Positions 19,021-20,713 of a DNA stretch of 64,000 bases are shown piece after piece (within the stretch, counting starts at the first letter, position 1; each line of letters starts with the position of its first letter). The stretch is from Kribbella sp. NBC_01245. GTDB lineage: Bacteria > Actinomycetota > Actinomycetes > Propionibacteriales > Kribbellaceae. Where the stretch lies: the NCBI RefSeq assembly GCF_036226525.1, contig NZ_CP108487.1:4340001-4404000 (forward strand), written 5' to 3'. Both the position numbers and the translations under genes were made by a program. Below the pieces are notes generated by a model. That model did no database searches. It was not told the DNA's origin and was given only the letters and a program-made list of their open reading frames with translations.

Positions 19021-19296
19021 TCAGCCGCCGGCGACGGCGGGGATGATGGAGACCTGGCCACCGTCCTTGATGGACGTCTGCAGGCCTTCGGCGAAGCGGA
19101 CGTCGTCGTTGTCGACGTAGATGTTGACGAATCGCCGCAGCTCGCCCGCGTCGTCGAGCACCCGGGACTTGATCCCCGGGTACGACACGTCGAGCGACTC
19201 GAGCACCTCGCTCAGGTTCGAGCCCTCTACCGAGACCTCGGAGACGCCCTGGGTGTAGGCCCGCAGGATGGTCGGAACGCGCACACTCACACTCAC
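19021..19296 (-). CDS. ThiS/MoaD-like sulfur carrier protein
   Basis: A 91-residue beta-grasp protein ending in ...AVAGG, the diglycine C-terminus that is adenylated and turned into a thiocarboxylate in ThiS, MoaD and CysO. FVNIYVDNDDVRF and the final SIIPAVAGG match the CysO-like group. Its GTG overlaps the stop of the threonine-synthase-like gene by 4 bp, so the pair is co-translated behind a SAM riboswitch. Family knowledge suggests sulfur delivery to a PLP enzyme, as CysO does for CysM; the partner here is inferred from the operon. Confidence 0.9.
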   Translation of the reverse strand: MSVSVRVPTILRAYTQGVSEVSVEGSNLSEVLESLDVSYPGIKSRVLDDAGELRRFVNIYVDNDDVRFAEGLQTSIKDGGQVSIIPAVAGG

Positions 19297-20561
19297 TGCA
19301 GACCTGCCTTCACAAAAGCGTCGTACGTCGCGGGAATGGTGACCTTCGGGCCGACCCGGTCGGCGACGGCGTCGAGCGTCTTCAGCCCGTCGCCGGAGTT
19401 GATGATGACGGTCTCGGCCTCGGGATCGAGCTGACCGGTCTCGATCAGCTTCTTCAGCGTCGCGACCGTTACCCCGCCCGCGGTCTCGCCGAAGATGCCC
19501 TCGGTCCGGGCCAGCAGCTGGATCCCCTCGATGACCTCTTCGTCCGTGACGTCCTCGATCGCGCCACCAGTACGGCGGGCCACGTCGAGCACGTACGGCC
19601 CGTCGGCCGGGTTACCGATCGCCAGCGACTTCGCGATGGTGTCGGGCTTGACCGGCTTGACCACGTCGTGGCCGTCGCGGAAGGCCTGCGCGACCGGGGA
19701 ACAGCCCGTCGCCTGCGCGCCGTACACCTTGTATTCGGCGGCGTCGACGAGACCGAGCTTCTGCAGTTCGGTGAAACCCTTGTCGATCTTGGTGAGCTGC
19801 GAACCCGAGGCGACCGGTACGACGATTTGCTGCGGCAGGCGCCAGCCGAGCTGCTCGGCGATCTCGAAGGCGAGCGTCTTCGAACCCTCGGAGTAGTACG
19901 GCCGGACGTTGACGTTGACGAAGGCCCAGCCCTCTTCCTCGCCGGCGATCTCGGAGGCCAGCTTGTTCACGTCGTCGTAGTTACCGTCAACGGCGACCAG
20001 CGTGCCGCCGTACACCGCGGTGGTGATGATCTTCGGCCGCTCGAGGTCGCTCGGGATGAACACGACCGAGCGGATGCCGGCCCGGGCCGCCGCGGCGGCG
20101 ACGGCGTTGGCCAGGTTGCCGGTGGAGGGACAGGCGAAGACGGTCAGCCCGAGCTCACGGGTGGCGCTCAGGGCGGTCGCGACGACCCGGTCCTTGAAGG
20201 AGTGGGTCGGGTTGCCCGAGTCGTCCTTCACCCAGAGGGTCTTCAGGCCGAGCTCGCGAGCCAGGTTGTCGGCCTTGACCAGGCGGGTGAAACCGGGCTC
20301 GGTATTCGGGAAGCTCGCCACATCGGTCGGCACCGGCAGCAGCGGCTGGTAACGCCAGATGTTCTTGGGTCCGGCCTCGATCTGCTCGCGGGTCACCGTG
20401 CCGTAGGAGTACCCGACTTCGAGCGGACCGAAGCACTCCATACAGGCGTAGAACGGGCCGAGCGGGGATTGCGCGCCACAAGCCCGGCAGCTCAGATGCG
20501 TGGCATTGCCGAAGGCGCCTTCGCGGATCGTGTGTGTCGCGGGAGCGGTGGTCAGGCTCAT
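19293..20561 (-). CDS. thrC: Threonine synthase-like PLP enzyme
   Basis: A 422-residue fold-type II PLP enzyme. Near the N-terminus are two Cys pairs (CRAC and CMEC, about residues 23-45), as in many threonine synthases. The PLP lysine is in NPTHSFKDRV (about residue 120), followed by CPSTGNLANAV, the phosphate/PLP loop. Classical members turn O-phosphohomoserine into threonine. ATG at 20561 is chosen because GGAGG lies 9 nt upstream; an ATG six codons earlier overlaps that site. Control by a SAM riboswitch and coupling to a sulfur carrier make a role in sulfur amino acid synthesis possible. Confidence 0.9.
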   Translation of the reverse strand: MSLTTAPATHTIREGAFGNATHLSCRACGAQSPLGPFYACMECFGPLEVGYSYGTVTREQIEAGPKNIWRYQPLLPVPTDVASFPNTEPGFTRLVKADNLARELGLKTLWVKDDSGNPTHSFKDRVVATALSATRELGLTVFACPSTGNLANAVAAAAARAGIRSVVFIPSDLERPKIITTAVYGGTLVAVDGNYDDVNKLASEIAGEEEGWAFVNVNVRPYYSEGSKTLAFEIAEQLGWRLPQQIVVPVASGSQLTKIDKGFTELQKLGLVDAAEYKVYGAQATGCSPVAQAFRDGHDVVKPVKPDTIAKSLAIGNPADGPYVLDVARRTGGAIEDVTDEEVIEGIQLLARTEGIFGETAGGVTVATLKKLIETGQLDPEAETVIINSGDGLKTLDAVADRVGPKVTIPATYDAFVKAGLQ

Positions 20562-20584
20562 GCGGAGTTCCCTCCTCATCTTCC

Positions 20585-20713
20585 CCGCATCCGGATCTCG
20601 GCACGGGACGGATTTGGCACCGTTCCACCGCGTCGGTCTCCGGATCGAGACGTCAACGGGGAGGGTTGCCGGGACTTCAACGGGCCGTTTCCCTCAGTCC
20701 CTCTGGATGAGCA
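20585..20713 (-). promoter_or_regulatory. SAM-I (S-box) riboswitch
   Basis: On the minus strand the leader reads CATCC-AGAGGGACTGAGGGA, then GGCCC, TGAAGTCCCGGCAACC and, 50 nt later, GGTGCCAAATCC. These are the conserved blocks of the S-box SAM riboswitch. P1 is formed by CATCC and GGATG. The 3' side of P1 is followed within a few bases by AGGAGG, the ribosome site of the threonine-synthase-like gene, so control may act on translation. Binding of SAM would switch the operon off. Confidence 0.9.

Follow-up and report, generated by a model that had tools for sequence, protein, structure and literature searches.

The operon described here from Kribbella sp. NBC_01245, best classed as a metM-metO pair, very probably makes homocysteine, from which methionine is formed, out of O-phosphohomoserine and sulfur borne by a carrier protein. 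The route has already been published for Streptomyces, and it is well supported that the Kribbella operon is a further example of it, not a new discovery. A probable homocysteine route through O-phosphohomoserine is now placed in Kribbella, and the main interest of the case lies in the breadth of its S-box linkage and in the lineages that carry metM without metO.

The operon and its conservation

The window is the whole 64,000-nucleotide stretch of DNA that was analysed. The features of the operon within it are as follows.

20573..20713, minus strand: SAM-I (S-box) riboswitch aptamer, leader of metM (RF00162, 73.3 bits, E 2.9e-15)
20571..20577, minus strand: Shine-Dalgarno-like motif GAGGAGG, which shares bases with the 3' strand of helix P1 of the aptamer (from the sequence)
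19293..20561, minus strand: metM, ThrC-like fold-type II PLP enzyme, 422 aa (open reading frame, PF00291, TIGR00260, clade, MetM-specific residues)
19021..19296, minus strand: metO, ThiS/MoaD-type sulfur carrier, 91 aa, C-terminal Gly-Gly (open reading frame, PF02597)
18892..18980, no strand assigned: perfect 26-nt inverted repeat between a convergent beta-lactamase-family gene (plus strand) and metO (minus strand) (repeat search)

The S-box, the ThrC-family PLP enzyme, the Gly-Gly carrier and the 4-bp overlap announced in a preliminary description of this DNA are all present at these minus-strand coordinates, the overlap being the GTGA at 19296-19293 that is shared by the metM stop and the metO GTG start. 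MetM matches Pfam PF00291 with an E-value of 3.8e-71, and MetO, which ends in IIPAVAGG, matches PF02597 (ThiS) with 3.7e-15. The longest metM reading frame runs from 20579 to 19293 (minus strand, 428 aa), and its presumed PLP lysine is residue 129 of that frame. The likely start is the ATG at 20561, giving 422 aa. The alternative in-frame ATG at 20579 is a less probable start, because it lies inside the aptamer and because in 49 of 80 relatives the alignment begins no earlier than residue 7; upstream alignment in the remaining relatives can stem from the conserved leader.

The nearest relatives of MetM are from Kribbella (91-93% identity). Conservation was followed in the best 80 of 556 relatives from a scan of genome contigs, a sample that consequently represents near kin, and in 20 diverse loci hand-picked from 135 MetM-bearing genomes of the class, with 59-71% identity. 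The gene next downstream of metM is metO in 75 of the near relatives and in 14 of the diverse loci, or 89 of 100. Because the arrangement of S-box, metM and metO recurs in related genomes, it is not a product of chance. Hasebe and colleagues are said to have found metO downstream of metM in Streptomyces as well, and MetO is there reportedly thiocarboxylated and donates sulfur. In the MetM tree, the protein from L056, a record titled Streptomyces sp. SID13031, falls with Kribbella, and that genome is probably mislabelled.

Riboswitch linkage and proposed control

The RF00162 match at 20713-20573 (minus strand) scores 73.3 bits (gathering score 44.4), spans the full model (1-108) and is the only Rfam match in the window to reach its gathering score. 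Across the 8.68-Mb single-contig genome, one RF00162 match was reported, with 150 of 524 first-look candidates scored. An S-box above the gathering score lies directly upstream of metM in 80 of 80 near relatives and one is also found at 20 of 20 diverse loci, so that all 100 relatives have one, two of them weak. The weak match at L186 scores 47.0 bits; the one at L201 (49.1 bits) is a short 62-nt match about 230 nt upstream of metM and is perhaps no normal aptamer. The preliminary description had raised the question of whether the pair always carries an S-box. For metM it does, at 100 of 100 loci including the two weak ones, but the carrier is not adjacent at 11 of these.

Control is likely translational, exerted in our model through the overlap between P1 and the metM ribosome-binding site. 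High SAM would stabilise P1 of the S-box, the 3' strand of which overlaps this site, and translation would fall. By a loose search pattern, and with the aptamer end set at the Rfam boundary, the first Shine-Dalgarno-like tetramer starts 1-5 nt inside the aptamer 3' end in 79 of 80 loci and at that end in the other. For the S-box in the window, a thermodynamic model computed without SAM pairs six of the seven GAGGAGG bases if P1 is imposed. If P1 is disallowed, bases one to three open and the next three remain in a local GGAG/CUCC hairpin, the last base being free either way; three of the seven thus stay paired, and the model gives partial opening only.

MetM and canonical threonine synthase

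At 286.8 bits, MetM passes the cut-off (167.1) of NCBIfam TIGR00260, the equivalog model for canonical ThrC, which does not separate MetM from ThrC; the cysteine synthase model gives 39.5 bits. Because the thrC model accepts MetM, automatic annotation can label it a threonine synthase, and methionine metabolism can then be mis-drawn in organisms without MetX and MetA.

A separation emerges when the proteins are compared directly. The MetM set consisted of the window protein and its 100 relatives (101 proteins, 100 distinct sequences). A branch with an SH-aLRT value of 99 separates all 101 from six canonical ThrCs and from a third, Cys-rich group with five members; the tree is a quick one with long branches flagged, and the ThrC comparison rests on six sequences. 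MetM lacks residues conserved in the six canonical ThrCs of the class: in 58 alignment columns, a single letter is found in 97% or more of the 101 MetM proteins, and 83% or more of the six ThrCs have another letter (43 columns) or a gap (15 columns). Thirteen of the 58 columns form an N-terminal segment with four invariant cysteines; five of the six ThrCs have a gap here, and the remaining one, from L002, has an over-long N-terminus. Among the residues that all 101 MetM proteins share, and in which the six ThrCs differ, are Tyr229, Leu156-Ala157, Ser258-Gly259 and Lys264. Tyr229 stands where an arginine is invariant in the six ThrCs and in the third group, and we take this arginine to bind the substrate phosphate in ThrC. 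Lys129, the presumed PLP lysine, is retained across all compared sequences.

MetM shares with canonical ThrC (relatives of known structure: 6cgq, 1uim and 2d1f) the fold-type II PLP family and the presumed substrate O-phosphohomoserine, and differs from it in the S-box, the carrier neighbour, the four-Cys segment, the exchange of Arg for Tyr229 and a location outside hom-thrC-thrB, where another gene sits. A ThrC-like group with a Cys-rich N-terminal segment, 32-37% identical to MetM, forms a clade of its own in genomes of the class (L168-L172).

Carriers, activator and methionine enzymes in the genome

Searching the genome with MetM returned two more ThrC-family genes with E-values under 1e-38, together with eight PLP enzymes that matched less well. 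One of the two, 38% identical to MetM, lies between hom and thrB (NCBIfam names) near 8.125 Mb and is the canonical ThrC; the second thrC that the preliminary description proposed to look for therefore exists, and metM is not the only one. The third ThrC-like gene, 30% identical to MetM, sits in an apparent operon (L040:4281-7130) with a YheO-like PAS/HTH regulator and an enzyme of the alanine-racemase/D-serine-dehydratase type.

A PF02597 search of the genome found five carriers, MetO and four others. CysO, to which MetO is 52% identical, adjoins CysM and a JAMM (Mec-type) protein; CysM-type cysteine synthase and Mec are both absent from the metM locus. The remaining carriers are a 66-aa ThiS-like protein, a MoaD2-like protein and one ending in PPFAGG, which is likely MoaD. 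Given this separate CysO-CysM-Mec locus and the presence of ThiS-, MoaD- and MoaD2-like proteins, the cysteine, thiamine and molybdopterin jobs probably have carriers of their own. The strongest ThiF match is a MoeZ-type E1 that joins ThiF to rhodanese. Both accessory proteins named in the preliminary description are thus encoded, the MoeB/ThiF-type activator as this E1-rhodanese protein and the Mec-type protease as the JAMM protein next to CysO. According to an excerpt of PMC3227635, the mycobacterial MoeZR sulfurates both MoaD and CysO.

No MetA and no MetX were found in the Kribbella genome, where the best match to the MetX model was a 25.6-bit fragment; matches with E-values of 1e-90 or lower in related genomes of the class score 313.6-448.2 bits. 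The genome has three strong Cys_Met_Meta_PP enzymes, and since one of them exceeds the cystathionine gamma-synthase model cut-off, they could in principle provide a second route from another homoserine ester.

Distribution of MetM and MetX

MetM is common in the class, being present in 135 of 196 genomes and absent from 61. A genome was counted as MetM-positive when its best match was stronger than E 1e-100, which takes in three incomplete cases (G060, G151 and G188); the MetM-negative G007 and G071 have weaker matches with an internal stop, and G007 carries 6% contamination. Because none of 14 control genomes and none of the 196 reached the 500-bit cut-off of the MetX model TIGR01392, MetX was judged by bit scores and E-values. 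Six genomes with weak matches to the model (90-164 bits; G017, G046, G080, G119, G187 and G190) are MetX-negative in a strict count and positive in a loose one, and contig-end fragments in G151 and G180 were counted as MetX.

Strictly counted, 62 genomes have both enzymes, 73 have MetM only, 57 have MetX only and 4 have neither, so that 73 of the 77 genomes lacking MetX have MetM (Fisher p 2e-11, phylogeny ignored). The loose counts are 68, 67, 57 and 4, with MetM in 67 of 71 (Fisher p 8e-10, phylogeny again ignored). As expected for an alternative route, MetM is nearly always present where MetX is missing. One of the four genomes with neither enzyme, G069, has MetA. MetM is not always the sole route, as 62 of the 135 MetM genomes also have MetX. 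A search of plasmid records gave a single match, unannotated, on a Nonomuraea megareplicon.

metM genes without metO

No carrier adjoins metM at 11 of the 100 S-box-led loci, which come from several lineages (L094, L096, L103, L104, L106, L183, L184, L186, L187, L200 and L201); on the quick tree this state requires at least five changes. All 11 proteins keep Lys129 and 15 listed MetM-specific residues, and several deviate from other MetM proteins at positions 83, 159 and 163. A screen for reading frames ending in Gly-Gly near these 11 genes yielded one unrelated frame only. In the five whole genomes searched with MetO (L094, L096, L103, L104 and L106), the best match has 61-71% identity to Kribbella CysO but 48-53% to MetO. 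In each of them the carrier most similar to the query is a CysO encoded near CysM and Mec, and the search turned up no MetO at any other site; as all five are drafts whose completeness is not stated, MAGs in two cases, this absence is not proof. Of the six genomes of the class among the 11, G019, G082 and G175 have no MetX match and G073, G085 and G095 have one.

Because CysO is the closest carrier in all five searched genomes, MetM may borrow it there. We tentatively propose, with a confidence just short of even, that in these lineages MetM takes its sulfur from CysO and that one thiocarboxylated carrier feeds both CysM and MetM. Alternatively, the loci suggest that MetM can use another sulfur donor. 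Among the papers listed in a literature search that did not extend to the primary MetM paper, we found no account of CysO sharing by MetM, and we claim no priority. Loci with metM but no metO offer natural material for testing whether amino-acid pathways can share sulfur carriers.

Proposed route and competing explanations

We infer the mechanism of the switch as given above, and the substrate of MetM and the sulfur transfer as follows. MoeZ would adenylate the Gly-Gly end of MetO on the way to a thiocarboxylate, while Hom and ThrB would supply O-phosphohomoserine, which MetM, a ThrC paralogue, would bind. MetM would then eliminate phosphate through PLP and attach the sulfur from the carrier to the gamma carbon, giving homocysteine, in contrast to a true ThrC, which would add water at the beta carbon.

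A protein thiocarboxylate also feeds homocysteine synthesis in the HcyS/HcyD/MetY system of Wolinella; MetY, unlike MetM, is a fold-type I PLP enzyme acting on O-acetylhomoserine. In the mycobacterial CysM/CysO/Mec system, the PLP enzyme CysM makes cysteine with carrier sulfur. That system differs from metM-metO in its PLP subfamily, in its product and in its use of Mec, and Kribbella holds a separate copy of it. The likeness is that of a fold-type II PLP enzyme fed by a Gly-Gly carrier, which is sulfurated in mycobacteria by MoeZR (excerpt of PMC3227635).

The closest precedent is the MetM/MetO route of Streptomyces (Hasebe et al. 2024, AEM 90:e01247-24, as relayed in an excerpt of PMC12172450). 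According to that excerpt, Streptomyces MetM acts as a homocysteine synthase with O-phosphohomoserine as its substrate, MetM prevents methionine auxotrophy in S. albulus, a SAM riboswitch lies upstream of S. albulus metM, and homologues of MetM are known from cyanobacteria. The Kribbella operon resembles the S. albulus pair in its ThrC-like enzyme, upstream SAM riboswitch and carrier partner MetO, and differs in belonging to another genus. The homocysteine route that the preliminary description put forward, through O-phosphohomoserine and a protein thiocarboxylate, essentially corresponds to that of Streptomyces MetM/MetO, and the checks of the Kribbella genome support it.

The gene could instead encode a true second threonine synthase, merely lowered when SAM is high, beside an unrelated carrier gene. 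The TIGR00260 score (286.8 bits, cut-off 167.1) and a cyanobacterial homologue with threonine synthase activity are in keeping with this. The homologue is the ThrC of Microcystis, a protein with 51.6% identity to MetM of S. albulus, for which the excerpt of PMC12172450 gives threonine synthase and threonine deaminase activity; a putative sulfur-carrier gene to which S. albulus metO is 47% similar adjoins its gene, and the same text doubts that the protein has full MetM function in the cell. We nevertheless consider such a second threonine synthase quite improbable, given that a canonical thrC already occupies hom-thrC-thrB, that MetM forms a separate clade with invariant residues deviating from ThrC, that the carrier adjoins metM at 89 of 100 loci, and that MetM occurs in 73 of 77 genomes without MetX. 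It is less credible still, indeed barely so, that MetO serves cysteine, thiamine or molybdopterin synthesis and that its PLP partner works as a cysteine synthase of the CysM kind. The mycobacterial CysM-CysO layout is closely analogous, and MetO is 52% identical to the CysO of its own genome; against this, CysO-CysM-Mec and the ThiS- and MoaD-like carriers are encoded elsewhere in the genome, MetM scores 286.8 bits with the ThrC model and 39.5 with that of cysteine synthase, and a SAM sensor suits methionine, not cysteine.

A closer competitor to carrier-fed synthesis, though an unlikely one, has MetM making homocysteine from O-phosphohomoserine with free sulfide in vivo and gives MetO an accessory part. 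The 11 S-box-led metM genes of 100 that lack an adjacent carrier speak for it, as their products keep the presumed PLP lysine and the 15 listed MetM-specific residues. The adjacency at the other 89, with overlapping or close genes, points to a functional pair, and CysO is present in all five of the searched genomes without MetO.

Sequences flanking the operon

The inverted repeat at 18892-18980, whose arms are 100% complementary and 37 nt apart, is plausibly, from its sequence, a two-way terminator. Adjoining the operon, two beta-lactamase-family genes (PF13354) and a LysR-type regulator lie side by side at 15837-18878 of the window. Upstream of the riboswitch, positions 20817-21129 hold a cluster of related direct and inverted repeats, among them a 53-nt inverted pair with 96% complementarity and 36-nt units that occur three times.
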